This document shows, in pieces, positions 6,928 to 36,883 of a DNA stretch of 36,883 nucleotides; positions within the stretch are counted from its first letter, which is position 1, and each line of letters begins with the position of its first letter. The DNA lies in contig JAJDHV010000008.1 of assembly GCA_030266365.1 (NCBI GenBank), forward strand, positions 1-36,883. The letters are read 5' to 3'. The translations under genes and the position numbers were made by a program. The notes under the pieces were generated by a model. It was not told where the DNA came from. It was given only the letters and a program-made list of their open reading frames with translations, and made no database searches. This DNA comes from Synergistaceae bacterium OttesenSCG-928-I11. GTDB taxonomy: Bacteria; Synergistota; Synergistia; Synergistales; Synergistaceae.

Positions 6928-7009
6928 GAAAGATGAACGGAACAGCGCGTGCGAATCTCTTTTTCTCATGATACAGTTATATAGACGATTCATTGGGAGG
7001 TGACGTGCG

Positions 7010-8035
7010 CTGGTCAACCTGTCGGAGTTCAACTGGCAGCTCATCCTGCTCATCGCTGCGATCAGTGCCGTTGTGTCGTACGTCGGAGACGTTCTCGGCA
7101 TGAAGATCGGCAAAAAAAGAATCTCGATCTTCGGCCTTCGGCCGAAATATACCTCGACGATCATTACGATCGCCACGGGCTTGGCTGTCGCCGTTCTGAC
7201 GCTCATGGTCGCTTCCTACACGTCCGAGCGGGTTCGTCACGCCTTTTTCGGCGTCAACTATCTCGACCGCCAGATCTCGCAGTTGACGACGGACGTTCGC
7301 GATCGGCAATATCAGCTGGACGAGATGGAGCTCGAGGTCTACAGTGCGCGAGAGGAGCTCGAGCGACTCACCGCCGAGGCGACGGAGCTGAAAAAAGGGC
7401 TTGCGGAGATGAAGGAGGGTCGCGTCATCGCCTTCCAGGGTGAATTGCTGGCACAGACGTCTGTGGAGGGAGATGCGAATCGCCAGGGGATCGACAACGC
7501 CATTTCTCGACTTGTGCAGATCGCGGAGGAAAAATTGTCCCTCAAGGACAACCCCACCGCACCCCCCAACCCCGCGACCGAGGTCGTCGTGACGCAGGAA
7601 GAGCGGGAGAAGGTCGAACGCGAACTTCTGGCCTCGGACACGCGCAAGGTGTTGCGGCTTTCTGCGCCGAGCAACATCGTGTTCGGTCAGACCGTGGAGG
7701 GTGTTTTGCAGATTTTCGACAGCAGGCTGGTCTATGAGAAAGACGCGTTGCTCTTGACGCACACGGTCGATGCACCGCTTTCATCTGAGAACGCGGCGGA
7801 TTTGCTGTACGCGCTCCTGAAACAGATCAACCGGATGGCGGTCCGAAACGGCGTGTTGCCCGACCCAATCTCCGGCACGGTCGGCAACCTCGACTCGATG
7901 GAGTTTTACGACGCCGTGGACAGGATCGGCGAGGGCGACGGCGAGAAGAAAATCGACCTGTTTGCGGCGACGGATATCTATACCGAAGGGCCGGTCAACA
8001 TCCGAGTGGAGGTCACCGTGCCCGACGGCAAGTAA
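7010..8035 (+). CDS. DUF3084 membrane-anchored coiled-coil protein
   Basis: Matches the DUF3084 pattern: an N-terminal membrane segment, VGDVLGMKIGKKRISIFGLRPK, a second membrane segment (about 50-70), a coiled coil (about 85-150) and a C-terminal beta-rich domain with QTVEGVLQIFDSRLVYEKDALL and GPVNIRVEV. The function is unknown. The first hydrophobic segment is coded upstream of the first in-frame ATG/GTG/TTG (GTG at 7073); between the in-frame TGA at 7001 and 7073 only CTG codons can serve. CTG at 7010, 9 bases after GGGAGG, gives 341 residues and keeps the membrane segment. A start at 7073 would remove most of it. The family is fairly certain; the start is not. Confidence 0.8.
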   Translation: MVNLSEFNWQLILLIAAISAVVSYVGDVLGMKIGKKRISIFGLRPKYTSTIITIATGLAVAVLTLMVASYTSERVRHAFFGVNYLDRQISQLTTDVRDRQYQLDEMELEVYSAREELERLTAEATELKKGLAEMKEGRVIAFQGELLAQTSVEGDANRQGIDNAISRLVQIAEEKLSLKDNPTAPPNPATEVVVTQEEREKVERELLASDTRKVLRLSAPSNIVFGQTVEGVLQIFDSRLVYEKDALLLTHTVDAPLSSENAADLLYALLKQINRMAVRNGVLPDPISGTVGNLDSMEFYDAVDRIGEGDGEKKIDLFAATDIYTEGPVNIRVEVTVPDGK

Positions 8036-8064: not shown

Positions 8065-8343
8065 ATGTTGATTGTTGGGTGTCAAACGTGCGGCGAAGCG
8101 AAAATTCTGGCAGGAACGCCCGATCGGGACGGCGTGGCGCGTGTGAAGTGGACCTGTTCCAAGTGCGGAACGGGGCAGGTGCTGCAACTCGAAATGGCGG
8201 TCGACGCGCGAAACGGCGACTTGCGGAAAATATTGGGCGGGCTTGCGCTGAGCGAGCCTCGAAACGCGGGCGAGCAGAATGCCGCGGACGGGTTGCCGGA
8301 GGAAACGATCGACCTGCCGCGCAATGCGTTTTCGCCTTTGTAG
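8065..8343 (+). CDS. Small zinc-ribbon-like protein, function unknown
   Basis: I do not recognise a named family. The 92 residues begin MLIVGCQTCGEAKIL and have two Cys-x-x-Cys knuckles (GCQTCG near 5-10 and TCSKCG near 31-36), the spacing of a rubredoxin-like zinc ribbon. The remainder is acidic and probably flexible. GTG codons at 8053 and 8056 are in frame, but the ATG at 8065 with AGGTGG 8 bases upstream is the better start. It lies 29 bases after the DUF3084 gene and 13 bases before the acetyltransferase gene, so all three are likely co-transcribed. It could be a nucleic-acid- or protein-binding accessory; nothing in the sequence decides this. Confidence 0.65.
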   Translation: MLIVGCQTCGEAKILAGTPDRDGVARVKWTCSKCGTGQVLQLEMAVDARNGDLRKILGGLALSEPRNAGEQNAADGLPEETIDLPRNAFSPL

Positions 8344-8356
8344 GAGTTTGGGGTAA

Positions 8357-8788
8357 ATGCCGCAGGTCGAATCCGGCGATTATCTCTTTTACGACAGCAA
8401 GCTCGCCGTGCTTCCGGCGGAGCTTCAGGAGCTGTATCGCTTCACGCACTGGGGGAGGAGCCGCACGCTCGACCAGATCGCGCGTATGCTGCAAGGTTCC
8501 GACCTCTGCTTTTCCGTGCGCTGCAAGGGGCACCTCGTGGCGTTCTGCCGAATGCTGACGGATTTCGTCTTTCGCGGGTCGATCTGGGATATCCTCGTTC
8601 ACCCCGATCACCAGGGCAAGGGGCTCGGTTCCAGAATGATGAACTACGCCCTGTCGCATCCCGCGGTGAAGGACATCCCGATCATCACGAGCTATTCGAG
8701 CGACCTCGTCACGTTTCTCAGACGCCACGGCTTCGAGGATACGGACGGCCTTATGGTGCTGCAGCGCGTGCCGATCGAGTATTCGTAG
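8357..8788 (+). CDS. GNAT family N-acetyltransferase
   Basis: A 143-residue single-domain acetyl-CoA-dependent acetyltransferase. Motif A is clear: WDILVHPDHQGKGLGSRMM (about 80-98), where the Q/R-x-x-G-x-G/A pyrophosphate loop is QGKGLG. The preceding strand LVAFCRMLTDF and the C-terminal FLRRHGFEDTDGLMVLQR also fit the fold. The substrate cannot be told. The start ATG follows TAGGAG with a somewhat long spacing of 11 bases, and GGGG lies closer. It probably belongs to the DUF3084-zinc ribbon operon; metK follows after 81 bases. Confidence 0.85.
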   Translation: MPQVESGDYLFYDSKLAVLPAELQELYRFTHWGRSRTLDQIARMLQGSDLCFSVRCKGHLVAFCRMLTDFVFRGSIWDILVHPDHQGKGLGSRMMNYALSHPAVKDIPIITSYSSDLVTFLRRHGFEDTDGLMVLQRVPIEYS

Positions 8789-8869
8789 CGCGCATTTGCA
8801 TTCGAGGGCGATGCGTGAGAAAATGACGATCAAACGACCCAAGAGGTCGAATTTATGGAGGTGTGTTCG

Positions 8870-10078
8870 ATGAGCAAAGAGCGGTACCTGATCACTTCGG
8901 AATCAGTGACGGAAGGGCACCCAGACAAACTCGCGGACCAGATCTCCGATGGCGTTCTTGACGCGATACTCGAGCAGGAGCCCATGGGACGTGTTGCGTG
9001 CGAAACGCTTGTCAGCACGGGTCTGGTAGTCATCACCGGCGAAATTACGACCGGCGTGTACGTCGATATCCCCAAAATCGCACGCACGACGATCAAGGAC
9101 GTCGGATACACGAGGGCGAAGTACGGTTTCGACGGCGACACCTGCGCCGTCATCACCGCGATCGACGAGCAATCGCCCGACATCGCCCGCGGCGTCGACC
9201 GCGCGATGGAAGTCCGCGAGTGTGACATGGACGACGACGCGATCGACAAGGTCGGCGCGGGTGACCAGGGGATGATGATCGGATACGCGTGCAACGAGAC
9301 GCCCGAGCTTATGCCGATGCCGATGGCGCTGGCACACAAGCTGTCGCGCAAACTCGCGCAGATTCGCAAGGATCTCGTCCTGCCGTATCTCCGCCCCGAC
9401 GGAAAGTCACAGGTCACGCTCGAGTATGAAGGACTGAAGCCGGTTCGCGTCGATACCGTAGTCATCAGCACGCAGCACCATCCCGCCGTCGACGAGTCCC
9501 AAATCGAGGCGGATATCACCGAGCACGTGATTCGCCCGATCATCCCGGAGAGCATGCTGGACGGCAAACCGAAAATCTATGTCAACCCGACGGGGCGTTT
9601 CGTCCTCGGCGGACCGCAGGCGGACTCCGGCCTCACCGGCCGCAAGATCATCGTCGACACGTACGGCGGCGTCGTGCCGCACGGCGGCGGCGCGTTCTCC
9701 GGCAAAGACCCGACGAAGGTCGACCGTTCGGCGGCCTATATGACCCGTTACGCTGCGAAGAACGTCGTCGCGGCGGGGATCGCGGAGCGCTGCCAGATTC
9801 AGGTCGCGTACGCGATCGGTGTGGCGAACCCCGTTTCGATTATGGTCGAAACCTACGGCACAGGCAAGATCGCCGATCACAAGATCACCGAGCTCGTGCG
9901 CAAGCACTTTGACTTCCGTCCCGCTGCGATCATTCGCGACCTCGACCTGCGCAAACCGCAGTATCGTCGCATTGCCGCGTACGGTCACATGGGTCGTACG
10001 GACCTCGATCCGATGCCGAAGTGGGAGAGCACCGACCGGGCGGACGCCATGCGTGCCGACGCGGAGGGAATGGCCTAG
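8870..10078 (+). CDS. metK: S-adenosylmethionine synthetase
   Basis: Makes S-adenosylmethionine from ATP and methionine, the methyl donor for cellular methylation and for the radical SAM and FkbM proteins at the right of this window. The 402 residues show [20 protein letters not shown] at the N-terminus, [12 protein letters not shown], the ATP-loop hexapeptide GAGDQG and the phosphate-binding [19 protein letters not shown]. An in-frame ATG 15 bases upstream overlaps the ribosome-binding site GGAGGTG, so the ATG at 8870 is chosen. No SAM riboswitch is visible in the 81 bases upstream, only a small hairpin CGACC/GGTCG. A terminator overlapping the next gene's start follows. Confidence 0.97.
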
Positions 10079-10119
10079 CCTCGTTTCGTGGCGCACATAT
10101 GCGTTTAGCAAAAATATTT

Positions 10120-10168
10120 CTGCCGGAGGCGTGAGATGTCTTTTCATCTTTCCTCCGGCAGTTTTTTT
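10120..10168 (+). terminator. metK terminator overlapping the comF start
   Basis: CTGCCGGAGG (10120-10129) pairs perfectly with CCTCCGGCAG (10152-10161), followed by seven U residues. The inner part AGATG/CATCT also pairs. The stem contains the CGGAGG ribosome-binding site and the ATG (10136-10138) of the annotated comF start, so the same hairpin ends metK transcripts and would block translation of comF from that ATG. Confidence 0.85.
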
Positions 10169-10807
10169 ATATTTGCGCGGAGCCTGCTGCATGTGTTGTG
10201 GCCGGCCTCGTGTCCGGTATGTGGCAAACTCGGCGAATCGATTTGCGCTTCATGCCTTGACGGATTGGCTCAAATGCCGATTTCCGTCTGTCTGGAGTGC
10301 GGTACCGGCGAGCCTTGCGCGTTGCATCCGAACGGGCCGTATTGCCGTGCCGTTTCACGCTATGACGCGGTCAACCGGCACGTCGTGCACGCGATGAAAT
10401 ACAGAAACGCGCGACGCGTCGCGACGATGATGGGGCAGCGAATTGCCCGGTCGATTGCGCCGCCGGACGCGGATTGCCTTGTACCGGTACCGTTGCACAA
10501 GGGCAGCGAGCGGGATTATAATCAGGCATGTCTCATCGCTCAGGGAGCGGGGGAAGTCTGGGGTATTCCCGTGCGACAGGTGCTTGCGTGGCACGGAAAC
10601 GTTTCGAGGCAGGCGCGCGCGGGTGGAGCGGAGGAGCGTTTTCTCCCGAAAGATGCTATAATCGTGTCGGGAAACTTGTCGGGTTGCCGGCGGGCTTGCT
10701 TGGTAGACGACGTACGCACGACGGGAAACACACTTTGCGCGGCGCGCGTTGCACTCGAAAGAGAGGGGTGCGGGGTGGCCGGCGCAGTGGTGTGGAGTAT
10801 GAGTTGA
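10136..10807 (+). CDS. comF: ComF family phosphoribosyltransferase-like protein
   Basis: ComF proteins (ComFC/GntX) have a zinc-finger N-terminus and a phosphoribosyltransferase fold; Bacillus ComFC is needed for DNA uptake in competence, but many non-competent bacteria keep the gene. Here CPVCGK and CASC (about 27-42) form the zinc finger, HAMKYRNARR lies mid-protein, and CLVDDVRTTGNTLCAA (about 188-203) is the PRPP loop. Length 223 is normal. The ATG at 10136 and its ribosome-binding site lie inside the metK terminator stem; a GTG at 10193, which would begin VLWPASCPVCG, is an alternative giving a shorter N-terminus. Its position before the TIGR03826 gene and flgM matches the Bacillus comF-flagellar arrangement. 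Confidence 0.88.
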   Translation: MSFHLSSGSFFIFARSLLHVLWPASCPVCGKLGESICASCLDGLAQMPISVCLECGTGEPCALHPNGPYCRAVSRYDAVNRHVVHAMKYRNARRVATMMGQRIARSIAPPDADCLVPVPLHKGSERDYNQACLIAQGAGEVWGIPVRQVLAWHGNVSRQARAGGAEERFLPKDAIIVSGNLSGCRRACLVDDVRTTGNTLCAARVALEREGCGVAGAVVWSMS

Positions 10808-22410: not shown

Positions 22411-25296
22411 ATGGCAAAAGAACTGGTAAAGGCCCCCGAAAGCCTCTCCGTGTGGATGAGCAACATGAGAGAACTCTACAAGAGGCAGCCGCAACTGGGC
22501 GCGGTTTTGCACGATTACGTAGAAAGGCACGGACATGAGTTCGAGCATTTCGAGAACAAAACCCCATCCGGAACATGGATCGAGTGCCTCTCGGACGAGC
22601 CGTTTTTCCAAACCGATGAGGAGCCGAAGGTCGATTGGGATAAAAAATCCCGCGACGTCCCCATCTTCTTCCAATATGGCATCGGCACGCCGCCTTACCT
22701 GTTCAAAGTAATTCGGAGCCTTCCTGCCGAGGCGCTTTCGCTTGTTGTTGTCGAACCGAACATCGAGTTGTTGGCGTACGTTTTGCACATGACACACGTG
22801 TACAAAGCAATGCCTCTGGGGGCGTCTCTTACCTTTTATGCTTTGCCGAAGGAGGTGCCGCCGCATTTTGAAATGTTGAGTGAAAAAACAGGCGACGAAG
22901 ATTTGCCTTTAAATATTTTGGCGAGAATTCTCAGGGAAGAGGCGTTGGACGCTGGGCTCAACGTCTATGGCCTCTTTACGGCCTTTATGTCCAGGACCTC
23001 CACGCACCCCGGAGAAGAGAATGCTTTCCAGGACGACCTCCTGGCAATGGCGAAGGACGTACGAGAGTGGCTCGTCCTTAAACTTAACTACCTTGGCAAC
23101 AGTTCGCACGATACGATGTTGGGCCTCAGGCAAATGGCGCTGATGTCCCCGTGGATCAGCTATGGCTACCAGTATGAATCCATATTGAAAGAATTTGCCG
23201 GCAAGCCGTTTGTTGTCGTTTCGGCTGGGCCGTCGCTGGAAAAGAATTACGAGTTGTTGCGGGACATTCAGGACAAGTGTGTGATTTTGGCGAACGACGC
23301 CACGCTGAAAAAATTGCTCTCTGCCGGCATAATGCCTCATATCGTCTGTGCCCTTGAGAGGGGGATGCCGACGTATGACATTTTTTTCAAAAACACAGTC
23401 AGAGATTATGCCGACGAATGCACAAAAATATTGTTGATCAGTCAGGCCGTCTGCACTCCGAAAATTTTTGGCACATGGCCGGGACCGAAGATAATAATCG
23501 GAAAATCCGAAATACCGGTGGACAAATGGTTTATTAACGGGACATTGCATGGCACACTAATCCCCTCCGGTTCCTCCGTTGCCCATATGTGTTTCGGCGT
23601 AGCCGCTACGATGGGCGCTTCTTCCATAGCACTTATCGGACAAGATCTCGCATTCGGTGGAGGTGTGGGCACTTGGACGACACATGCATACGGTGTTTTT
23701 GCCGAAAAACCTACAGCCGCCGGACAAGATAAGGAAATGAATGAAGAGACAGGAAAAAAAGAATTAAGCGAAGAGCAAAAACAGTACTATTTAAGCAAAG
23801 GTCATTACTTCGTTCGTGGTCTCCTCGGTGGCGAGGTCTTGACGACGGAGCTGTGGCTTTCGTTTCTTCGGATGTTTGAGTCGCGCATCAATATGACCAG
23901 TGCGCCGGTTTATGACTGTACCGAGGGAGGTGCCCTCATAAAAGGCACCATCGTGAAGCCATTCGGTGAATACATCTCGGAAAAAGTCGCGATACAGGAT
24001 GCACTTAAAATGTCGCCTGCCACTCTCGCGGTTGAAAAAGGTGTCGTCGCCGATAAAAAAGGAAAGTACGATTTTCTCCGGCCTTTTTTCGAAAAGGCGT
24101 ACAAAGATTTGGACACGGCTGCCGATCTCATCCTCAAAATAATGAAGAGCCTCGACGATGTCTCGGCAGCAGCTATTTTGCCCCAAAAAAGAGTGCAGCA
24201 TGCGGCGGAGACCGCGAAACTTCTGGATAAACTCAACAGCCTAAACCCGATGTTCGCATTTATCGCCCAGAGTTATCTGTATTTGTCGACGCCGGAAATC
24301 GCCGTCACCCGTTTCCTTGACAACGTTGAAACTGTCGAACGCTGGGTAAAAACTCACAAGGAGATTGTCGAGGGGCACGTTGCCGTCGCAAGATTTATAA
24401 AAATATGGTTGAGCTATGCTGACAAGGCTATGGAGTATTATCTGGACAAGGATTTGCCGCTCCAGCCTCTTGAGCCGGAAGAATCCTATGGCGAATTCGA
24501 GAGGGTATGCGAAACTCTTGGGGATGGGCACGATCAGGTTGCGCTCAGGTACGAGATGGACAAACTGTTTGCGTTTGTCGATATGCAACAGGCGTGTTGG
24601 CCGCCGGCCGCCCTTTGGCGGAGCGCGATGTTCCTGTTGCAGGAGAGCCGTTCACAGGAAGCTGGAATATTGATGGCATCTGCGGCAGTGTCCTTTGAAG
24701 ATACGGAGATGCCGACGGACGAAATTTATTCGTTCATGAAGGATTACGCAAGGGTGTTAATCACTCCCGACCTTTGTCATCTGCCGAATTACGAGTATGC
24801 AAAAACACTTCTTGAAAACGCAGAAGAGTTGTGCGGCAGTGACGAAGAGATAGAGGACCTCAAAACCGAATTGCGTGAAAAACAAAGATCCTATTTGGTC
24901 GATATCAGCCTCTTGTCGACGCCGTATCGCAAGCAGTACGTCAATGCTTGGTATGCTGCCAGGAAGGAGGCGGACGAGGCTTTGTCGCGCAGGGACCCGA
25001 TGGCGGCCATGAGAATTATCTGGGACGCGTTGTGCGCTTACGGCGAGTATCTCCCTGGGATTGCCGCCCCGTATCTGCACTGGCTTGTCTCGAATATGGA
25101 AAAATTTTTCGGCGCAGAAGACGAGCGTTATACGCCTGTGATCGACGGACTGCTGGACGAGATGGTCTCTAGGCCCGATGTGTTGAGAAGTGTGCCCATA
25201 CCGTATACATACGCTTTTATGGCAGCGCTCGCCAAGCACGGCGCCGATATCAAACTCTCCCAGCCGGAAAAAGAGGGTGTCCCGAGCGAATCGTAA
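22411..25296 (+). CDS. Motility accessory factor (Maf, DUF115) flagellin glycosyltransferase
   Basis: Maf proteins attach nonulosonic acids such as pseudaminic or legionaminic acid to flagellin before export. The central DUF115/MAF domain shows FVVVSAGPSLEKNYELL (about 270-286), where SAGPSL is the family signature, then VILANDATLKKLLSAGIMPHIVCALERG, and GSSVAHMCFGVAATMGASSIALIGQDLAF (about 390-418), the nucleotide-binding side of the domain. The N-terminal region VFFQYGIGTPPYLFKVIRS-like (about 85-103) also fits. At 961 residues it is at the long end; the C-terminal 350 residues are helical and of unknown role. It follows csrA and precedes the flagellin genes, and the pse-type genes at the window's right end could supply its sugar. 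Confidence 0.88.
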   Translation: MAKELVKAPESLSVWMSNMRELYKRQPQLGAVLHDYVERHGHEFEHFENKTPSGTWIECLSDEPFFQTDEEPKVDWDKKSRDVPIFFQYGIGTPPYLFKVIRSLPAEALSLVVVEPNIELLAYVLHMTHVYKAMPLGASLTFYALPKEVPPHFEMLSEKTGDEDLPLNILARILREEALDAGLNVYGLFTAFMSRTSTHPGEENAFQDDLLAMAKDVREWLVLKLNYLGNSSHDTMLGLRQMALMSPWISYGYQYESILKEFAGKPFVVVSAGPSLEKNYELLRDIQDKCVILANDATLKKLLSAGIMPHIVCALERGMPTYDIFFKNTVRDYADECTKILLISQAVCTPKIFGTWPGPKIIIGKSEIPVDKWFINGTLHGTLIPSGSSVAHMCFGVAATMGASSIALIGQDLAFGGGVGTWTTHAYGVFAEKPTAAGQDKEMNEETGKKELSEEQKQYYLSKGHYFVRGLLGGEVLTTELWLSFLRMFESRINMTSAPVYDCTEGGALIKGTIVKPFGEYISEKVAIQDALKMSPATLAVEKGVVADKKGKYDFLRPFFEKAYKDLDTAADLILKIMKSLDDVSAAAILPQKRVQHAAETAKLLDKLNSLNPMFAFIAQSYLYLSTPEIAVTRFLDNVETVERWVKTHKEIVEGHVAVARFIKIWLSYADKAMEYYLDKDLPLQPLEPEESYGEFERVCETLGDGHDQVALRYEMDKLFAFVDMQQACWPPAALWRSAMFLLQESRSQEAGILMASAAVSFEDTEMPTDEIYSFMKDYARVLITPDLCHLPNYEYAKTLLENAEELCGSDEEIEDLKTELREKQRSYLVDISLLSTPYRKQYVNAWYAARKEADEALSRRDPMAAMRIIWDALCAYGEYLPGIAAPYLHWLVSNMEKFFGAEDERYTPVIDGLLDEMVSRPDVLRSVPIPYTYAFMAALAKHGADIKLSQPEKEGVPSES

Positions 25297-25489: not shown

Positions 25490-27847
25490 ATGAGAATCAA
25501 CACCAATATCCCCGCACTGCAATCCTACAATGCACTTACCTTGACCAACAATGCACTCCAGAAGTCCATCAACCGCCTTTCGACCGGCCTGCGCATCAAC
25601 AGTGCCGCCGACGACGCCGCCGGGCTCGCCATCTCCGAGAAGATGCGCGCGCAGTACCGCGGTCTTGACCAGGCTGTGAACAACTCTCAGGACGGCATCT
25701 CGATGATTCAGACGGCGGAGGGTGCCTTGAACGAGACGCACTCCATCCTTCAGCGTATGCGCGAGCTGTCCGTACAGGCGGCGAACGACACGCTGACGCA
25801 GGAAGACCGCAGCTACATCCAGCTCGAGGTCGACCAGCTCAAGGAGGAGATCACCCGTATCTCCAACACGACGCAGTTCAACAAAAAGCAGCTGCTCGAT
25901 GGTTCTGCCGCTGCGGTGTGGTCCTCTGACAACCTCGAGACGAAGGCGATCATCAACGGCGGTCTTCGCGAGATCGACCAGTTCGGCCAGAAGAAGGCGG
26001 TCGAGGGCAACTTTAAGATCACGATCAAGGCGTCGCCCGGCGAAGCCGAGGTACAGAAGTCCGATATCTTCAAGATCAAGCACAAGAACGTCATCATGGA
26101 CGTCCTTGTGAACAAGGAACAGGGCGTCGAGAAGGTTCGCGTCGACAACCTGCCGGCCGGTACATATAATATCAAGGTATTCTCTTCGGCCGGTGCGCTC
26201 TCAGCGGCTGCGGCAGTTGGTTTCACTAGCGCAGCTGGCATTGTGGCGACTTATGGAGACATTGTTAAAGGTGCGTTCAAAATGAGTGGCATCAATACAT
26301 TGTCAGCCAGTCACAATATGAGCTACCTCTTTGAAGTCGCGAGCGTCAACACGGCGGCGAATCAGGTTGTGTTCAATGTCCGTGCCATGGGTGTAGATGC
26401 GAAGGGCAATGCTCTAACGTTTAACGGAGGCCAGATTACCGTTGGCACAGCAGGGGCCAAAGATGGCGACTATAAAGCAATAGGGCTCAATCTCGCACAA
26501 TCTGCGATATCTCTTAGCAATGCGAAAGCGACTGCTTTTTCCGTCGGTTCCAAGCTCGTCATCTCCCACGTCGCGACGAATGCTGATAAAGGTTTGACGG
26601 TGAGCGGTACCATAAACACAGACTGGGAGGGTGCGTGGAGTACTGGCAACGCTACTCTCAAGAACGCCTACGGTGTGAATGTAGCGGATGTTCAAAACAA
26701 AGAGGTTCACTTCAAACAGTTCTATCTGAACACGGCTAATGGCACCGTCCACGAGGGCGACATCGTAGTCACCTTCAACACTTCGTTTGCCGCTACCAGT
26801 AAGGGTGGAGTGGCCTCCTTCGAAGCAGCTTACATCGGTCAGGTAGCGAAGGGCGACGTACAGCTCCGCGACCTTGACAAGTTCTGGGACGCGAACGGCA
26901 AGTTCATGCTGGACGACCCCAAGACGCTGTCGATCGTTCAGGGCGACGGCAAGAAGACGAACGTGACACTGTACTCGACGGACACGCTCGACGATGTACG
27001 CAAAAAGCTGAACGATGCAGTCGCTGTCGGTCTTGGTCAGGGTAAGTACGCGAGCAACAACATCGACAACTTTGTGTCGTTCGTTGAAGACTCAGTGCCG
27101 AACAGCCCGGAAGCAGTAGAGGGAACGTTCGTCATCCGCAGCCTGATCCCTGGTGCAAACGGCAAGCTCAGCCTTTCCGGCGACGAGGACATCATCAAGG
27201 CGTTCAGCCTGAACGTGATCCAGGAGGCGAGGGAGAGCCAGTTCGAAGTCTCGATCGTCGACGCCCACTCGGGCAACGTCGTCGCCACCGACGCCAAGGT
27301 GACCGGCAACACGCTCGTTGGCGTGCTCCACGAGAATGTCGACGTGAAGTTCGACTCGATGGCGAACATTGACGTGACTTGGGACAAAGACAGCGGTCGC
27401 TTCTTGCTGAAGCAGTCGACGGATGTCTACGAGACGATCCTTCACCTTGCGGATAACACGACGGTGTTCCAGATCGGGGCCAACGAAGGCGAGGACATGG
27501 GGATCAACATCGGCAACATGTCCGCGGAGGCACTCGGCGTGCACAACTTGATCGTGACGGACCGCGAGTCTGCTGCCCGGAGCATCACAGTCATCGACGG
27601 CGCGATCAACAAAGTGTCGTTGCAGCGTGCGAAACTCGGTGCATACCAGAACCGTTTGGAGCACACGATCAACAACCTGACGACGGCATCGACGAACATG
27701 AAGTCGTCCGAGAGCCGCATTCGCGACGCCGACATGGCGAAAGAGATGATGAACTTCACGAAGCTCAACATCCTGAGCCAGGCCGGCAACTCGATGCTCG
27801 CACAGGCCAACCAGCTGCCGCAGAACATCCTGAGCCTGCTCCGCTGA
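25490..27847 (+). CDS. Flagellin, first copy
   Basis: Filament subunit exported through the flagellar type III system. The conserved N-terminal D0/D1 domain is clear ([49 protein letters not shown]), as is the C-terminal D1/D0 domain ([59 protein letters not shown]). Between lies a 500-residue variable domain with a module resembling IN motifs ([18 protein letters not shown], then [13 protein letters not shown]). Total 785 residues, far above the 275-500 common in flagellins. From codon 77 to the stop it appears identical at DNA level to the next flagellin gene; only four residues differ overall. Many codons end in C or G, suggesting high expression. The symbol is left empty because fliC and hag are both used. 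Confidence 0.96.
25718..27845 (+). repeat. 2.1-kb direct repeat, copy A (flagellin 1)
   Basis: This 2128-base stretch reads identically, as far as I compared it by eye, to 28450-30577 (offset 2732). It begins sharply at codon 77 and ends at the first base of the stop codon (TGA here, TAA in copy B). The preceding 228 coding bases differ at about 30 positions, and the leaders are unrelated outside the ribosome-binding hairpin. Confidence 0.9.
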
Positions 27848-28221: not shown

Positions 28222-30579
28222 ATGCGTATCAACACCAATATTCCAGCGCTACAGTCTTACAACGCACTCACCGCGACCAACAGCGCACTTCAGAAGTCCA
28301 TCAACCGTCTCTCGACCGGCCTGCGTATCAACAGCGCCGCCGACGACGCTGCCGGGCTCGCCATCTCCGAGAAGATGCGCGCGCAGTACCGCGGCCTCGA
28401 CCAGGCCATCAGCAACTCTCAGGATGGCATCTCGATGATCCAGACTGCCGAGGGTGCCTTGAACGAGACGCACTCCATCCTTCAGCGTATGCGCGAGCTG
28501 TCCGTACAGGCGGCGAACGACACGCTGACGCAGGAAGACCGCAGCTACATCCAGCTCGAGGTCGACCAGCTCAAGGAGGAGATCACCCGTATCTCCAACA
28601 CGACGCAGTTCAACAAAAAGCAGCTGCTCGATGGTTCTGCCGCTGCGGTGTGGTCCTCTGACAACCTCGAGACGAAGGCGATCATCAACGGCGGTCTTCG
28701 CGAGATCGACCAGTTCGGCCAGAAGAAGGCGGTCGAGGGCAACTTTAAGATCACGATCAAGGCGTCGCCCGGCGAAGCCGAGGTACAGAAGTCCGATATC
28801 TTCAAGATCAAGCACAAGAACGTCATCATGGACGTCCTTGTGAACAAGGAACAGGGCGTCGAGAAGGTTCGCGTCGACAACCTGCCGGCCGGTACATATA
28901 ATATCAAGGTATTCTCTTCGGCCGGTGCGCTCTCAGCGGCTGCGGCAGTTGGTTTCACTAGCGCAGCTGGCATTGTGGCGACTTATGGAGACATTGTTAA
29001 AGGTGCGTTCAAAATGAGTGGCATCAATACATTGTCAGCCAGTCACAATATGAGCTACCTCTTTGAAGTCGCGAGCGTCAACACGGCGGCGAATCAGGTT
29101 GTGTTCAATGTCCGTGCCATGGGTGTAGATGCGAAGGGCAATGCTCTAACGTTTAACGGAGGCCAGATTACCGTTGGCACAGCAGGGGCCAAAGATGGCG
29201 ACTATAAAGCAATAGGGCTCAATCTCGCACAATCTGCGATATCTCTTAGCAATGCGAAAGCGACTGCTTTTTCCGTCGGTTCCAAGCTCGTCATCTCCCA
29301 CGTCGCGACGAATGCTGATAAAGGTTTGACGGTGAGCGGTACCATAAACACAGACTGGGAGGGTGCGTGGAGTACTGGCAACGCTACTCTCAAGAACGCC
29401 TACGGTGTGAATGTAGCGGATGTTCAAAACAAAGAGGTTCACTTCAAACAGTTCTATCTGAACACGGCTAATGGCACCGTCCACGAGGGCGACATCGTAG
29501 TCACCTTCAACACTTCGTTTGCCGCTACCAGTAAGGGTGGAGTGGCCTCCTTCGAAGCAGCTTACATCGGTCAGGTAGCGAAGGGCGACGTACAGCTCCG
29601 CGACCTTGACAAGTTCTGGGACGCGAACGGCAAGTTCATGCTGGACGACCCCAAGACGCTGTCGATCGTTCAGGGCGACGGCAAGAAGACGAACGTGACA
29701 CTGTACTCGACGGACACGCTCGACGATGTACGCAAAAAGCTGAACGATGCAGTCGCTGTCGGTCTTGGTCAGGGTAAGTACGCGAGCAACAACATCGACA
29801 ACTTTGTGTCGTTCGTTGAAGACTCAGTGCCGAACAGCCCGGAAGCAGTAGAGGGAACGTTCGTCATCCGCAGCCTGATCCCTGGTGCAAACGGCAAGCT
29901 CAGCCTTTCCGGCGACGAGGACATCATCAAGGCGTTCAGCCTGAACGTGATCCAGGAGGCGAGGGAGAGCCAGTTCGAAGTCTCGATCGTCGACGCCCAC
30001 TCGGGCAACGTCGTCGCCACCGACGCCAAGGTGACCGGCAACACGCTCGTTGGCGTGCTCCACGAGAATGTCGACGTGAAGTTCGACTCGATGGCGAACA
30101 TTGACGTGACTTGGGACAAAGACAGCGGTCGCTTCTTGCTGAAGCAGTCGACGGATGTCTACGAGACGATCCTTCACCTTGCGGATAACACGACGGTGTT
30201 CCAGATCGGGGCCAACGAAGGCGAGGACATGGGGATCAACATCGGCAACATGTCCGCGGAGGCACTCGGCGTGCACAACTTGATCGTGACGGACCGCGAG
30301 TCTGCTGCCCGGAGCATCACAGTCATCGACGGCGCGATCAACAAAGTGTCGTTGCAGCGTGCGAAACTCGGTGCATACCAGAACCGTTTGGAGCACACGA
30401 TCAACAACCTGACGACGGCATCGACGAACATGAAGTCGTCCGAGAGCCGCATTCGCGACGCCGACATGGCGAAAGAGATGATGAACTTCACGAAGCTCAA
30501 CATCCTGAGCCAGGCCGGCAACTCGATGCTCGCACAGGCCAACCAGCTGCCGCAGAACATCCTGAGCCTGCTCCGCTAA
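28222..30579 (+). CDS. Flagellin, second copy
   Basis: A 785-residue flagellin that differs from the first copy at only four residues, all in the first 70 (for example Ala18 for Leu and Ser21 for Asn). The D0/D1 ends and the large central domain are as described for copy one. The DNA is apparently identical from codon 77 onward, while the first 76 codons carry about 30 mostly synonymous changes. That pattern fits gene conversion of an older duplicate better than a fresh tandem duplication. The start ATG follows AGGGAGG within a CsrA-type hairpin. No terminator separates it from flaG, so the two are probably co-transcribed. Confidence 0.96.
28450..30577 (+). repeat. 2.1-kb direct repeat, copy B (flagellin 2)
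   Basis: Second copy of the 2128-base tract at 25718-27845. Such a repeat can recombine, deleting one flagellin gene and the leader between (2732 bases), and can be collapsed by short-read assembly. Confidence 0.9.
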
Positions 30580-30645: not shown

Positions 30646-30673
30646 AAACCTTCTCTGCAAGGTGGTGATCCAG

Positions 30674-31033
30674 TTGAAGGTAGCGGAAACAAACGCGTTT
30701 ACGCCAAAAGATCAATCGGCCCTGGTCGATGCAGTTCGTTTGGCGGTATCGACTGGCAACAGGGACGCAACCGCTTCGCCGACGACAAAGGACACCGCTC
30801 CTTTTGATAAGGATCGATTAAAAGAAGCGCTTAAAGCGGCGGATAGACTGTCTGAATACTCTAATCGCAGACTTAAGTTCGAGTATCAGAAGGAGGCCGA
30901 TGTTTTTCAGGTGTCCGTGGTCGACGGCGAGGATGGGAAAGAGGTGATACGCAAGATACCACCGGACGGTATCCTGCGTATGATCGAAAACCTCAAAAAA
31001 TTCGCCGGCGTCAGTCTCGATACAAAAGCGTAG
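30674..31033 (+). CDS. flaG: FlaG family flagellar protein
   Basis: FlaG proteins influence filament length or filament-cap assembly and usually lie beside flagellin or fliD. The C-terminal domain is characteristic: RRLKFEYQKEADVFQVSVVDGEDGKEVIRKIPP followed by ILRMIENLKKFAGV, where the D-x-x-T/K-G-E-V-I-R-K-I-P-P pattern is the FlaG signature. The N-terminal half is polar and low in complexity. The frame is open from 30635, but TTG at 30674 is chosen because AAGGTGG lies about 8 bases upstream, giving 119 residues; GTG at 30665 is possible. It is followed by a strong terminator. No fliD is in the window. Confidence 0.9.
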   Translation: MKVAETNAFTPKDQSALVDAVRLAVSTGNRDATASPTTKDTAPFDKDRLKEALKAADRLSEYSNRRLKFEYQKEADVFQVSVVDGEDGKEVIRKIPPDGILRMIENLKKFAGVSLDTKA

Positions 31034-31282: not shown

Positions 31283-31289
31283 CTTGCAC

Positions 31290-33737
31290 ATGCGTATTTT
31301 GCAGAACATACCGGCGCTTCAAAGTTACAATGCGCTGACCAAGACGAATGAGGCGTTGTCAAAATCGATCAACAGGCTTTCGACAGGTCTGCGGATCAAC
31401 AGTGCGGCGGATGATGCCGCAGGGCTTGCGATTTCGGAGAAGATGCGCTCGCAGATTCGAGGGCTCAACCAGGCAACGCGTAATGCCCAGGACGGTATCT
31501 CAATGATTCAGACGGCGGAGGGCGCGCTTTCGGAAACGCACTCAATGCTCCAACGTATGAGGGAATTGGCTGTGCAAGCCGCCAACGATACGTTGACACA
31601 AGAGGACCGCAGTTATATCCAAGCTGAAATCGACCAGTTAAAAGAAGAGATCACGCGCATCTCGACGACGACGCAGTTCAACAAGAAACAACTGCTCGAC
31701 GGTTCCGGTGGCGCGCTTTGGTCGACGGACAATCTGGCAACCAAGGTTATTGTGAATGGCGGCTTACGTGAGATAGACCAGTTTGGGCAGAAGTCGGCGC
31801 GCGAAGGTAACTTCAAGATCACGATTGACTCTATACCGGGGCAATCACAGACGCAAAAGACGGACATTTTCAAGATCAAGCACCCTAATGTCATCATGAA
31901 TGTCACTTTGAATAAAGGCGCTGGTTTTGAAAGCGTCAGGGTCGATAATCTCCCGGCCGGAAATTATAACGTGATTGCCGGAACCGCGGTTGCCGCAGAC
32001 GGTGTGGTTCATGCCGCATATTTTGCCAAAGCCGGACAGATCATAACCGCGGCGGCTGGTTTGACTGTGACTGCATCGAGCGCAGATCTAGTCGCCGAAC
32101 TTCTGGACATCGATTGGACTGAAATGGGCATTACCGACAATCAGAGCATCCTGATGGAAGTTGTGTCGGTCAACACGGCCGCCGGAGCAGAGAGCGTATC
32201 CTTCCGTTTGCAGATTAAGAGCCTTTCTGTTGATGGAACGCTCAACTCCTATAACGACTCGAATTTTCTAGTGACACAAAACGGTATTTCTGGAAAGAAA
32301 GAAGAATTGGGTTGGGACGTATCGGACGCGACGGCTTTCGCTCTTAAAGATGTGGCGAAAATTGGTCTGTTTACGGCAGGCGACAAAATTGTTTTCAACT
32401 ACGCGGCGGAATCCAACCGTGCTGGAACTTTTTCCGCCACCGTCGCGATAACTGTATCCGGCAAGGTTAACACGGTCTGGCCCGAGGGTTGGACGAAGAC
32501 TGTGAGCGCTGGGGGGCTTAAAGCTCCTGCTACCTACGAATCCACCTTCAATGTTGCAGCGTCCGCGGTTCGCGGCGGCGAGATTCACTTCAAACAGTTC
32601 TATTTGAACACACAGAACGGAACGCATTATGAAGGCAGCACGGTGATTACCTTCAACACGGCATTTGCCGCGCCCTCTGGCGGAACGACAATCGTTGGCA
32701 CGACATTCGAAGCCGCTTATATCGGGCAGGTTGCCAAAAAGGATGTTCAGTTGCGAGACCTTGATAAGTTCTGGGACCCCAATGGAAAGTTTTTGCTGGA
32801 CGAGGCGAAACAACTTTCAATTATACAGGGAGACGGGACGAAGGCGACGTTTACGATCTACTCGACAGATACATTGGAAGATGTGCGCAAAAAACTCAAC
32901 GACACAATTGCCCTCGGCCTCGGTCAAGGAAAATATTCCCCCGAAAGCATCAACAATTTTGTGTCGTTTGTTGAAGACCCGGTGCCGAACGGACCTGAGT
33001 CCGTGCAGGGGACGTTTATCATACGCAGTTTGGTTCCCGGCTCGGACGGCGCTTTGTCGTTCTCGGGAGACGAGGATATTATCAGGTCGTTGTCATTGAA
33101 TGTAATACAAGAATCAAAAGAGAGTCAGTTCAGGGTGTCGGTTTACGACGCGCATACAGGAGCTACGGTAGCAACCAACGTCAAGATCAGCGGCAATACG
33201 CTGTATGGAGTGGTCGCACCCAACATCGATGTGACCTTCGATCCAATGGCCGACATTAGGGCAACTTGGAATCCAAGGACACTGGGATTTGATTTGATCA
33301 GCATGCCGGAGGAGTACAGCACGATCGTTCACTTGTCCGACAACTCGACGATCTTCCAGATTGGCGCGAACCAGAGCGAGGACATGAGCATCGATATCGG
33401 TGACATGGGTGCATACGCCTTGGGTATTCACAACATCAACGTCTCTGACAGGGAATCTGCAGCCCGCGCGCTCGGCAAGATCGACAACGCAGTTGGTCTT
33501 GTTTCGAAACAGAGGGCAAAGCTCGGCGCATATCAGAACAGGTTAGAGCACACCATCAGTAACCTGACGACGGCCGCTACCAACACAACGGCAGCCGAGA
33601 GCCGAATCCGCGATGCTGATATGGCGAAGGAAATGATGGAGTTCACGAAGCTCAACATCCTGAGTCAGGCTGGCAATTCGATGCTCGCGCAGGCCAACCA
33701 GTTGCCACAGAATGTGATGGCCCTGCTCAGAGGGTAA
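31290..33737 (+). CDS. Flagellin, diverged third copy
   Basis: An 815-residue flagellin with the same plan as the two before it: [36 protein letters not shown] and [13 protein letters not shown] at the N-terminus, [21 protein letters not shown] and [16 protein letters not shown] at the C-terminus. The central domain has clearly diverged and is about 30 residues longer, although [20 protein letters not shown] and the IN-like [23 protein letters not shown] remain. Codons are less biased than in copies 1 and 2, suggesting lower expression. An in-frame TTG lies 6 bases upstream, but the ATG at 31290 aligns with the other flagellins and has AGGGAGG 9 bases before it. It could be a minor or position-specific filament subunit. 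Confidence 0.95.
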
Positions 33738-33856: not shown

Positions 33857-35053
33857 ATGGATAAGCCGATAATTTTTTACGGTGCGGGAAGCTCTGCAAA
33901 AGAGGTTTTAGAACAGTGTTTTTCTAAAAATATCGTGCCTGTTTGTTTTACTGACTCCGATAAGCGTAAACATAATAGTTCATTTGAAGCAGTTGGAGGA
34001 AGTTTTGAAATACTGCCTCTTAATGATGCATTAGAACGGTGGCCGGATGCCGATGTGTTGATCTCGACCAACCCCGTTTGGTATGCTGAAGTTCGCGAAT
34101 TATTACTCTCAAATGGATTATCAGAAGAGCGGGTGCGTTTCCCTGATTCGCTTAAATTTTTTGTCGGTATCCCAAAGCACTGTCCTGAAATTGGGCATTT
34201 TTTTGTGCTGGATGGCTTGGGTTATAAAACCTGTTGCGGGCCATATATCAGAAATTGTGCGAGTACGGGAAATTTGGAGGAAGACATTGCGCAATATTAC
34301 GAGTTTTGTGAGCAGTTGAGAGATGCGTTGAACGAGGGTAAACTGACAAGCTGTGCGGATTGTTCGATGCTTCGCGATGGTCGTTCGGAAGAGCCTTTAA
34401 AGATTGAGAGGGTTAATTTATCAACTGGACTCCCGGGCGGAGATCGTTGTAACGCGCGCTGTTGCTATTGCACCTATGGAGAGTCCCTTGGTGCACATGC
34501 CAGAGAAGATAATCTCTTGGAAATCGTTCGGAAATTAACGGCGCAGCCGGATATGGATTATTTATATTATGCATCCGGTGAACTCAGTATTTCTCCATAT
34601 AGAGATGAAATCCTGAAGATGTGGAAAGAAAAGGGCTGGGCAGGGCAAATTGACACCAATGCATTTTTGTATTGCGATGGCATAACGACGTTGTTGCGTG
34701 ATAGACGCGTTCGCGCGGAAATCAGCTTGGATGCCGGGACGCCAGAAACATTTACAAAGGTGAAAGGCGTCGATTGTCTGGGGAGGGTTATGAGAAACAT
34801 CAAACGATATGCTGAGGCAGGAGAGGTTTGGCTTAAATATATTATTCTGGAGGGTATCAACGACAACGATACTGATATAGATGGATTTGTGACAATCGCG
34901 AAAAAAATGTATGTTCGTCATATTGTTATTAGCAGAGACCGCAGAGTTATGTATGCGCCGATGACGGACAACGAAAGTTCGGCATTCGCACGTTTGGTTA
35001 ACCAATGTCAAACTGCGAGGTTGCCTTATTCTTTTTCGAACGGAGAAATCTGA
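33857..35053 (+). CDS. Radical SAM protein with N-terminal Rossmann-like domain
   Basis: The 398 residues combine two parts. Residues 1-95 begin IIFYGAGSSAKEVLEQ, a glycine-rich GAGxxA loop of a Rossmann-type fold, and are clearly homologous to the N-terminus of the next gene product. Residues about 185-370 form a radical SAM domain: Cys198, Cys202 and Cys205 in GDRCNARCCYCTYGE give the Cx3Cx2C cluster motif, followed by ASGELSISPYRDEILKMW, ISLDAGTPETFTKVKG and YIILEGINDND typical of the barrel. Extra cysteines precede it (Cys126, 127, 134, 166, 169) and might bind another Fe-S cluster. The substrate is unknown; context suggests a sugar or flagellin modification. The gene is AT-rich compared with its left neighbours. 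Confidence 0.85.
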   Translation: MDKPIIFYGAGSSAKEVLEQCFSKNIVPVCFTDSDKRKHNSSFEAVGGSFEILPLNDALERWPDADVLISTNPVWYAEVRELLLSNGLSEERVRFPDSLKFFVGIPKHCPEIGHFFVLDGLGYKTCCGPYIRNCASTGNLEEDIAQYYEFCEQLRDALNEGKLTSCADCSMLRDGRSEEPLKIERVNLSTGLPGGDRCNARCCYCTYGESLGAHAREDNLLEIVRKLTAQPDMDYLYYASGELSISPYRDEILKMWKEKGWAGQIDTNAFLYCDGITTLLRDRRVRAEISLDAGTPETFTKVKGVDCLGRVMRNIKRYAEAGEVWLKYIILEGINDNDTDIDGFVTIAKKMYVRHIVISRDRRVMYAPMTDNESSAFARLVNQCQTARLPYSFSNGEI

Positions 35054-35054
35054 C

Positions 35055-36239
35055 GTGAAAAAACAATTTATTTTTTATGGTGCCGGTTCTTACGCGAAGA
35101 GTGTCATTGATAGCCATATCGCGATGGATATTGTGCCGGCTTGTTTTGCGGATAAGGATGAGAAAAAACATCATACCAAAATAAAAACGCAAAACGGCAG
35201 CGAATATGAAATTCTTCCACTTCGCGAGGCAATTACGCGCTTCCCTGATTTTGTGTTGATTGTCATGGTTGAGCCGTCTTTGTTTGCCGGTGTCTGCTAC
35301 GACCTGATTGAAAATGCTGGAATTATGCCGGAGCTCATCGGGCCACCGCTATTTTACAACCAGCCTGCTTTTCGCGGATCCTCCAACAATTTCTCCGAGC
35401 TACAAAATAAACTTGCAGATAGCGCAGTCAAAAAAATAGAAATTTTTCAAGATTGCACGGATATTACTGTTGATGCTTTGGGTGACAACCAAATTTTTAA
35501 AATGCGCATGGATGATATTGGTGGGTCTACGATGGGTATTTTGGAGGAAAAACAGTGCGAAGCAGACGAAATGCGCATGCAGCATCGAATTCTGTCCATG
35601 TTTTCTAGAGATTCTATAATTTTTGATGTAGGCGCAAATGTTGGCCTTTATTCACTTTGTTATAAAACATGGTTTCCTGAAATGACTGTTTATGCTTTTG
35701 AACCGTTACCATTGACTTATAGCTTTCTGAAAGAGAACCTTGCCCTGAATAAAATGGATGGTGTGGTTGCCAACAATTTTGGCTTTTTTGACGAGGAAAA
35801 AAGAGTGGAATTCCACTTTTATAGATACACCTCTGGTGCTTCGTCGATTCAAAACATAAGGAAGCTTGGGGAGTCTGCATTTGAAAAAGTCGAATGCAGT
35901 GTTACGACATTGGATTCTTACGTAGACAAGAAAAACGCGCACGTAGATTTTATAAAATGCGACGTAGAGGGTTCGGAGCTTTACGTATATAAGGGCGGAA
36001 TTCAAACGCTAAAAAGAGACAAGCCGGTTGTTTTTTCCGAGATAGTTCACTCCGCAGCTTTTGGATACAGCCACAATGATGTTGTCTCGTTGTTTAAAGA
36101 TTTGGGCTATGTATGCCACGTTATAGAGAATGATCGCCTGAAAGCGATAGAAACAATCACAGAGGACGAGCGCGCGACAAATTTTATCTTTATACATAGC
36201 TCGAAACTTGAAATGTTTGAAAGTATCATCTGCGATTGA
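35055..36239 (+). CDS. FkbM family methyltransferase with N-terminal Rossmann-like domain
   Basis: The 394-residue protein has the same N-terminal domain as the gene before it (FIFYGAGSYAKSVID at 5-19, VPACFADKDEKKH at 27-39, YEILPL at 51-56), then a SAM-dependent methyltransferase domain of the FkbM type: IIFDVGANVGLYSLCY (about 188-203) is the SAM loop, VYAFEPLPLTYSFLKENLALN follows, and HVDFIKCDVEGSELYVYKGG (about 294-313) is the FkbM signature. FkbM enzymes O-methylate sugars or small molecules. The start is GTG, 1 base after the previous stop, with GGAG 9 bases upstream, so the two genes are coupled. A role in O-methylating the flagellin glycan is inferred from context. Confidence 0.87.
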   Translation: MKKQFIFYGAGSYAKSVIDSHIAMDIVPACFADKDEKKHHTKIKTQNGSEYEILPLREAITRFPDFVLIVMVEPSLFAGVCYDLIENAGIMPELIGPPLFYNQPAFRGSSNNFSELQNKLADSAVKKIEIFQDCTDITVDALGDNQIFKMRMDDIGGSTMGILEEKQCEADEMRMQHRILSMFSRDSIIFDVGANVGLYSLCYKTWFPEMTVYAFEPLPLTYSFLKENLALNKMDGVVANNFGFFDEEKRVEFHFYRYTSGASSIQNIRKLGESAFEKVECSVTTLDSYVDKKNAHVDFIKCDVEGSELYVYKGGIQTLKRDKPVVFSEIVHSAAFGYSHNDVVSLFKDLGYVCHVIENDRLKAIETITEDERATNFIFIHSSKLEMFESIICD

Positions 36240-36243
36240 CTTT

Positions 36244-36883
36244 ATGTCATATAAGTATTTGCCGTATGGGCGGCAACACGTCGACGATGAAGATATCAAG
36301 GCCGTAATAGAAGTTCTTCAAGGCGATTGGCTCACAATGGGGCCCGCGGTAGAGCGTTTTGAAAAAACAGTGGCCGATTACTTGAACGTGCCTCATGCGG
36401 TTGCTTTTTCCAGCGGAACGGCTGCGTTGCACGCCGCCATGCATGTTGCGGGAGTGAGAGAAGGCAATTCTGTCGTTGTGTCGCCGATGACCTTCGTCGC
36501 TACGGCTAACTCTGTGCTATATTGCGTGGGGATTACGCTGCTAGCCGATATTTCACCGGATACGCTGAATCTTTCAGCCTAAGCGACAAGAACGATGATT
36601 GAATCGTCGAAAATGCCGGTGAAGGTGATTGCACCAGTCAGTTATGCAGGTTTTCCTGTCGACATAACCTCTTACAGAGAAATTGTTGGCTCTAAAGACA
36701 TTTTGATTATCGAAGACGCCAGCCACGCCCTGGGTGCTGTACGTAATGGTCGGTATGTCGGCGAGGAAGCGGATATGACAATTTTCAGCTTTCACCCTGT
36801 AAAGCACATTACGACCGCCGAGGGCGGGATGGTCGTCACCGCCTCCGATGACTTCGCCGCCCACCTGAGGCGCTTCCGTTCGC
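36244..36883 (+). pseudogene. pseC: PseC-type aminotransferase interrupted by an in-frame stop (right end cut off)
   Basis: PseC is the PLP-dependent transaminase that makes UDP-4-amino-4,6-dideoxy-N-acetyl-altrosamine, second step of pseudaminic acid synthesis. YLPYGRQHVDDEDIKAVIEV, GDWLTMGPAVERFEK and AFSSGTAALHAAMHVAG match PseC well. The frame then meets TAA at 36580-36582 (after DISPDTLNLSA), yet the same frame continues with excellent homology: IAPVSYAGFPVDI, LIIEDASHALGA and FSFHPVKHITTAEGG, which contains the PLP lysine. No frameshift is needed; one base change (for example GAA to TAA) explains it. The first fragment alone lacks the PLP lysine and cannot be active. A nonsense mutation or a sequencing error are both possible. 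It follows the methyltransferase gene by 4 bases; a clear ribosome-binding site is not seen. Confidence 0.82.

Follow-up and report, generated by a model that had tools for sequence, protein, structure and literature searches.

A PglD_N-like N-terminal module shared by adjoining radical SAM and FkbM methyltransferase genes at a flagellin glycosylation locus of a Synergistaceae bacterium

The gene pair and its shared module

We analyzed a 36,883-nucleotide stretch of DNA from Synergistaceae bacterium OttesenSCG-928-I11 (contig JAJDHV010000008.1), further referred to as the window. Close to its end, two genes of the forward strand are separated by a single base (35054). The first (33857..35053, ATG start, TGA stop) encodes a radical SAM (RSAM) protein of 398 aa, composed of an N-terminal module, a twitch-like domain and a radical SAM barrel. 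The second (35055..36239, GTG start) encodes an FkbM methyltransferase of 394 aa which also begins with the module. The C-terminal part of the RSAM protein matched PF04055 Radical_SAM (E 4e-12, 46.9 bits against a cut-off of 29.5); the core covers residues 195-338 (34439..34870, +) and contains the CxxxCxxC motif at 198-205. The C-terminal part of the FkbM protein matched PF05050 (E 4e-19, 69.9 bits against a cut-off of 22.7; residues 191-353, 35625..36113, +), and the protein also matched TIGR01444 (E 6e-30, 104.5 bits against a cut-off of 37.7).

The module occupies residues 1-101 of the RSAM protein (33857..34159, +) and residues 1-98 of the FkbM protein (35055..35348, +). We compared both N-termini with BLASTP and found 39 of 98 residues identical (40%) and 61 of 98 similar (77 bits, E 7e-20), in an alignment which runs one to one from residue 1 over approximately 98 residues. 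The local score of the module was 186, while 2000 shuffles gave a mean of 24 (sd 4.2, maximum 46). Outside the module there was no similarity (score 38 vs shuffled mean of 33). The motifs which had led the preliminary description to propose two adjoining genes with one common N-terminal module were found as quoted (IIFYGAGSSAKEV / FIFYGAGSYAKSV, VPVCFTDSDKRKH / VPACFADKDEKKH, and EILPL in both proteins), and the proposal is confirmed by the alignment, the coordinates of the reading frames and the one-base gap. Since the codon-aligned DNA of both modules is only 51% identical, the sharing is old and a recent duplication of the module is ruled out.

Further, we modelled both proteins with AlphaFold2. 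The RSAM model, based on an alignment of 19 sequences, had a mean pLDDT of 87.9, and the FkbM model had a pLDDT of 71.5 overall and about 88 across the module. The predicted strands (E) and helices (H) of the RSAM N-terminus were E5-8, H12-22, E30-32, E42-45, E48-53, H55-61, E66-69 and H73-85, and those of the FkbM N-terminus were E4-8, H12-23, E28-32, E41-44, E50-54, H56-62, E66-70 and H74-86, that is, in identical order. Differing folds would have spoken against the shared Rossmann-like module proposed earlier, and the predicted folds agree; as RSAM modules were included in the alignment for the FkbM model, these predictions cannot be counted as independent.

Flagellin genes and the probable continuation of the locus

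Upstream of the gene pair, on the same strand, lie a gene of an MptE-like / PseD-Maf-like flagellin modification protein (22411..25296; PF01973, E 2e-38; NF050051, E 1e-38, below the cut-off), three flagellin genes (25490-27847, 28222-30579 and 31284-33737) and a FlaG-like gene (30671-31033). Of the 2358 positions of the first two flagellin genes, 2327 are the same in both. All but one of the 31 differences fall within the initial 228 bases, and the remaining one lies at the end. This pattern suggests that the gene body was duplicated recently or underwent gene conversion.

Downstream of the pair we found the 5' part of a pseC-like aminotransferase gene (36259..36882, +), which contains an in-frame TAA (36580-36582) and ends with the contig. 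It spans positions 2-212 of the PseC profile, and another contig of the same genome, C80, starts (C80:3-413) at positions 241-379 of the same profile. Because the profile is split in this way, the two contigs are probably adjacent. An intact PseC, scoring above the curated cut-off, is encoded on a further contig of this genome (C103), and the copy in the window is a pseudogene or an assembly error.

After the pseC fragment, C80 encodes PseB, a cytidylyltransferase, RfbF, RfbG, RfbH, an acetolactate-synthase-like TPP enzyme, NeuB and NeuC. It also carries two module-bearing FkbM-like proteins (the second protein identified by Pfam, the first read from its sequence), GT2, a GT-D protein with the module, a second NeuB/PseI and PseG-like genes. 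The pair therefore appears to head a flagellin glycosylation island, in which flagellins are followed by sugar-nucleotide genes, the latter being connected through the join deduced from the split pseC. The flagellin-glycan context, as originally described, was thus upheld by the flagellins and PseC and, via this probable join, by the sugar genes of C80. On C80 (L152, L144) the Pse/NulO gene set lies beside RfbF, RfbG, RfbH and the TPP enzyme, a combination which, we presume, could lead to a branched, yersiniose-like CDP-dideoxysugar.

The flagellin glycosylation islands of Geobacillus and Enterobacteriaceae likewise contain flagellin-linked sugar loci with FkbM genes, and those of Enterobacteriaceae also contain PseC/DegT aminotransferases and NeuD (PMC5109656, PMC4875605). 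The word "radical" is absent from the main texts of both surveys, and we therefore take neither of them to describe a radical SAM gene. We also searched the literature for radical SAM enzymes in connection with FkbM and the glycosylation of flagellin, and for such enzymes in loci of pseudaminic acid, and found nothing relevant.

Relatives, fusion partners and origin of the module

The module is a member of the PglD_N / CoA_binding-like Rossmann superfamily, which is already known and occurs in NDP-sugar acetyltransferases (PglD, VioB), FlaA1-type dehydratases and Rex. Both window modules matched PF17836 PglD_N under its gathering cut-off of 23.4 bits (RSAM protein 13.7 bits, or 17.3 bits and E 0.0073 for its N-terminus alone; FkbM protein 20.7 bits). 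Given these scores, they are filed as PglD_N-like and not as members of PF17836. A profile of 17 modules matched the solved structures 3NKL (E 5e-8), Rex (2VT2, E 7e-6; 5ZZ5, E 3e-5) and VioB (E 6e-5), which amounts to profile-level homology to the superfamily.

The profile of module-bearing FkbM proteins matched 2PY6 almost end to end (E 1e-39), and also VioB (7TXP), perosamine N-acetyltransferase and, weakly, PglD (3BSS). Foldseek likewise ranked 2PY6 first for the window FkbM model. This protein of Methylobacillus flagellatus, for which we found no assigned substrate, has the same two-domain layout, FkbM and a Rossmann-like module, so the layout of the FkbM protein is already known from a crystal structure. 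The module subgroup differs, as the window FkbM protein has a module of the RSAM type.

The N-domain of PglD, NeuD and VioB (PF17836, TIGR03570) has the beta-alpha-beta arrangement, the glycine loop and the Asp after strand 2 which are also seen in the window modules, and the matches to these models were weak but consistent, under the curated cut-offs. In contrast to those enzymes, the window proteins have no hexapeptide acetyltransferase domain. The first Asp (D33, end of strand 2) and the loop glycines (GxG) are retained. According to our own alignment, the nucleotide-contacting Ser of PglD and its uracil-contacting second Asp appear to be replaced (Gly11, Ser34/Lys34), and both RSAM proteins of genome G187 have lost the glycine loop; the predicted nucleotide binding may therefore be weak, altered or absent. 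In an acetyltransferase of this kind the N-domain serves as a UDP-binding platform (PMC8040287). The most likely role of the module is indeed nucleotide-sugar binding, suggested in the preliminary description, since it is the N-domains of VioB, perosamine N-acetyltransferase and PglD that make up its solved relatives.

We also searched for the module on other enzymes, a check which had been recommended at the outset. The module profile matched 71 of 188 Synergistota genomes (E <= 1e-5), and in glycan loci the module is joined to twelve or more types of enzyme. Its partners, as identified by Pfam, were FkbM, TylF, GT2 (with a C-terminal module), MptE-like proteins, aldo/keto reductase, B12-type RSAM, RSAM-SPASM, WbsX, GT1, hexapeptide transferase, LicD, GT-D and a citrate-lyase-ligase-like protein. 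Stand-alone modules as well as FlaA1-like and Rex-like proteins were identified from sequence. These promiscuous fusions rule out a module private to the RSAM-FkbM pair. Because the layout is so common in glycan loci, sharing of the module alone is no proof of a two-enzyme unit or of docking, and the earlier idea that it marks a two-step RSAM and FkbM unit, or a docking pair, is not supported in that form.

The modules of the window were sisters in both trees which we obtained (support 99/94 with 32 modules, 99/93 with 65 modules). The sister pair was nested in the RSAM modules of genomes G021, G135 and G187 (support 97/91 and 99/92), and the FkbM modules of G135, of the same genome as the window and of other genomes were placed elsewhere in both trees. 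A single clade of FkbM modules was rejected (AU test, p = 0.012 for three modules, p = 2e-9 for four), as was a position of the window FkbM module outside the RSAM-type group (p = 0.015), so its inheritance within the FkbM family is ruled out. With sister modules nested among those of the RSAM type and apart from other FkbM modules, it is probable that an RSAM-type module was transferred into the neighbouring FkbM gene; the donor was presumably the RSAM gene next to it. Within the phylum, the catalytic domain of the window FkbM protein is closest (38-42% identity) to module-less proteins of about 230-236 aa from G123, G126 and G143. The module of the GT-D protein on C80 fell into the same larger RSAM-type subgroup with weaker support, and a tree which leaves it out of this subgroup was not rejected (p = 0.31).

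The module could instead be a docking or oligomerisation domain, by which the RSAM and FkbM proteins would form homo- and hetero-oligomers and pass an intermediate within one complex. Such an arrangement would fit genes lying one base apart and window modules which are each other's closest match among all sequences found, and the GT-D protein would be a third candidate from the same genome, given the weak support for its place in the subgroup. However, the domain is a nucleotide platform in solved relatives, and the module is usually present as one copy, on an enzyme of unrelated type which has no matching partner. Moreover, in G135 the RSAM and FkbM genes are adjacent, yet their modules come from different subgroups. 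We consider docking improbable. Still somewhat less probable is a Rex-like role, in which the module would bind a dinucleotide, such as NAD(H), and would serve the two enzymes as a sensor of a redox or regulatory kind. The ligand of the Rex relatives is NAD(H), not sugars; Rex structures were among the best profile matches, and D33 and the GxG loop would suit this function. Yet the window pair lacks the third Gly of the dinucleotide motif, and the module is fused to glycan enzymes encoded in glycan loci, rather than to regulators or redox enzymes.

The radical SAM enzyme and the proposed role of the pair

Between its module and its barrel, the RSAM protein contains a predicted N-terminal auxiliary-cluster (twitch-like) domain (residues 109-169; 34181..34363, +). 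Its five cysteines (C109, C126, C127, C166, C169), as well as those of the CxxxCxxC motif (C198, C202, C205), were invariant in 19 homologues from Synergistales, Bacillota, Desulfovibrio, Gastranaerophilales and one phage contig. In the model, a hairpin (115-124) and a helix (140-159) are set among the five cysteines, and C166xxC169 follows the helix. The elements of a twitch domain are ordered as Cys, hairpin, Cys, helix and two Cys (PMC6231123), and the RSAM protein has the corresponding four cysteines around its hairpin and helix. The SPASM/twitch enzymes (BtrN, SkfB, SuiB, MoaA) likewise join a barrel to a Cys-flanked hairpin, helix and CxxC. In those enzymes the auxiliary domain comes after the barrel, whereas in the window protein it comes before, and the auxiliary cysteines were N-terminal to CxxxCxxC in all 19 sequences. 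This domain order (module, predicted twitch-like domain, barrel) is an uncurated type.

The short name of NCBIfam NF033640 (twitch domain-containing radical SAM protein), N_Twi_rSAM, implies that the twitch is N-terminal, as predicted for the window protein. This model gave only weak matches: 6 of the 19 RSAM homologues were found at E up to 10, the best E value being 0.0036, and homologue L026 scored 16.4 bits against a cut-off of 170. All scores were far under the cut-offs, which rules out assignment of the protein to NF033640, MoaA or any NCBIfam equivalog. PHROGs contained no family for it. A single-sequence search of named genomes gave no exact relatives; an alignment query was successful.

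About half of the 19 homologues lack the Rossmann module. As such module-less homologues exist, the module is an add-on of this RSAM family and is not needed for the core reaction. The best structural matches of the RSAM model were SuiB, SkfB, PFL activating enzyme, NifB, DesII and BlsE; the last two we take to be sugar enzymes. The peptide maturases SuiB and SkfB at the top of these matches, and the flagellin genes immediately upstream, would suit an RSAM enzyme which acts on the flagellin protein or another peptide and is next to FkbM incidentally, but its homologues are also found in polysaccharide loci where no flagellin gene was visible (G021, L043, L046) and, together with NeuB, in a glycan locus of a phage (L089). 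In passing, we noticed neither a RiPP recognition element nor a precursor peptide. We regard a peptide target as quite unlikely.

A methyltransferase gene adjoins the module-RSAM gene in three loci, namely the window, G135 (TylF-like and FkbM) and L043, and no methyltransferase flanks the module-RSAM genes of G187 and L046. In L043 (Defluviitaleaceae, 8300-10207) one protein directly after the module-RSAM gene combines Methyltransf_24 and TylF with the module between them. NeuB genes are found near the RSAM homologues of G135 and of L089. The latter, an IMG/VR phage contig (849-6520), has a module-less homologue among NeuB, GT2 with a C-terminal module, SDR and NAD-dependent epimerase. In G187 (L057, contig C40, 3688-6174, - strand) two RSAM genes lie in tandem, their modules without the glycine loop, and, judging from sequence, they adjoin an SLH-type gene and a sortase-like gene. 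In L046, a Clostridiales MAG, the likely start codon of the module-RSAM gene is not in the reading frame of that gene (around 6970-7010), which might reflect an assembly error.

We consider it fairly probable that a promiscuous nucleotide-sugar-binding module stands in front of two enzymes which tailor the flagellin glycan. The module would hold an activated sugar by its nucleotide, or bring the enzyme to that sugar, and the catalytic half would do the chemistry. For FkbM this would be O-methylation. The RSAM barrel with its auxiliary Fe-S domain would take hydrogen from the sugar, leading to oxidation, epimerisation or deoxygenation. Both modifications would precede transfer of the sugar to flagellin. 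In this lineage the FkbM module would derive from an RSAM-type module, presumably that of the neighbouring gene, and such a gain fits selection for recognition of a similar ligand by both enzymes. The best reading is that RSAM and FkbM may recognise a similar nucleotide sugar, perhaps one of cytidine. RfbFGH (CDP-sugar) genes adjoin the FkbM relative of G123, the only one of the three nearest relatives whose neighbours were named. Their presence there and on C80 suggests that the window FkbM may methylate a CDP-derived deoxysugar.

A bolder version seems rather unlikely to us, though less so than the alternatives above. According to it, RSAM-type modules would be a tag for one activated sugar (e.g. 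CDP- or CMP-linked), RSAM, FkbM and the GT-D of C80 would act in sequence, the RSAM protein would be the first known radical enzyme to tailor a flagellin glycan, and transfer of modules between neighbouring genes would be a route of recruitment.

In summary, the pair most likely tailors the flagellar sugar coat, rather than forming an unheard-of machine. We found no description of radical chemistry in flagellin or capsule-like glycan pathways in the literature searched, and these results point to an uncharacterised RSAM family (module, N-terminal auxiliary cluster, barrel) in such pathways. If the proposed role is true, it would provide a testable rule for unannotated glycan loci, in which modules of the same subgroup would indicate the same activated sugar, and it would be an instance in which a domain passed from one enzyme of a pathway to another.
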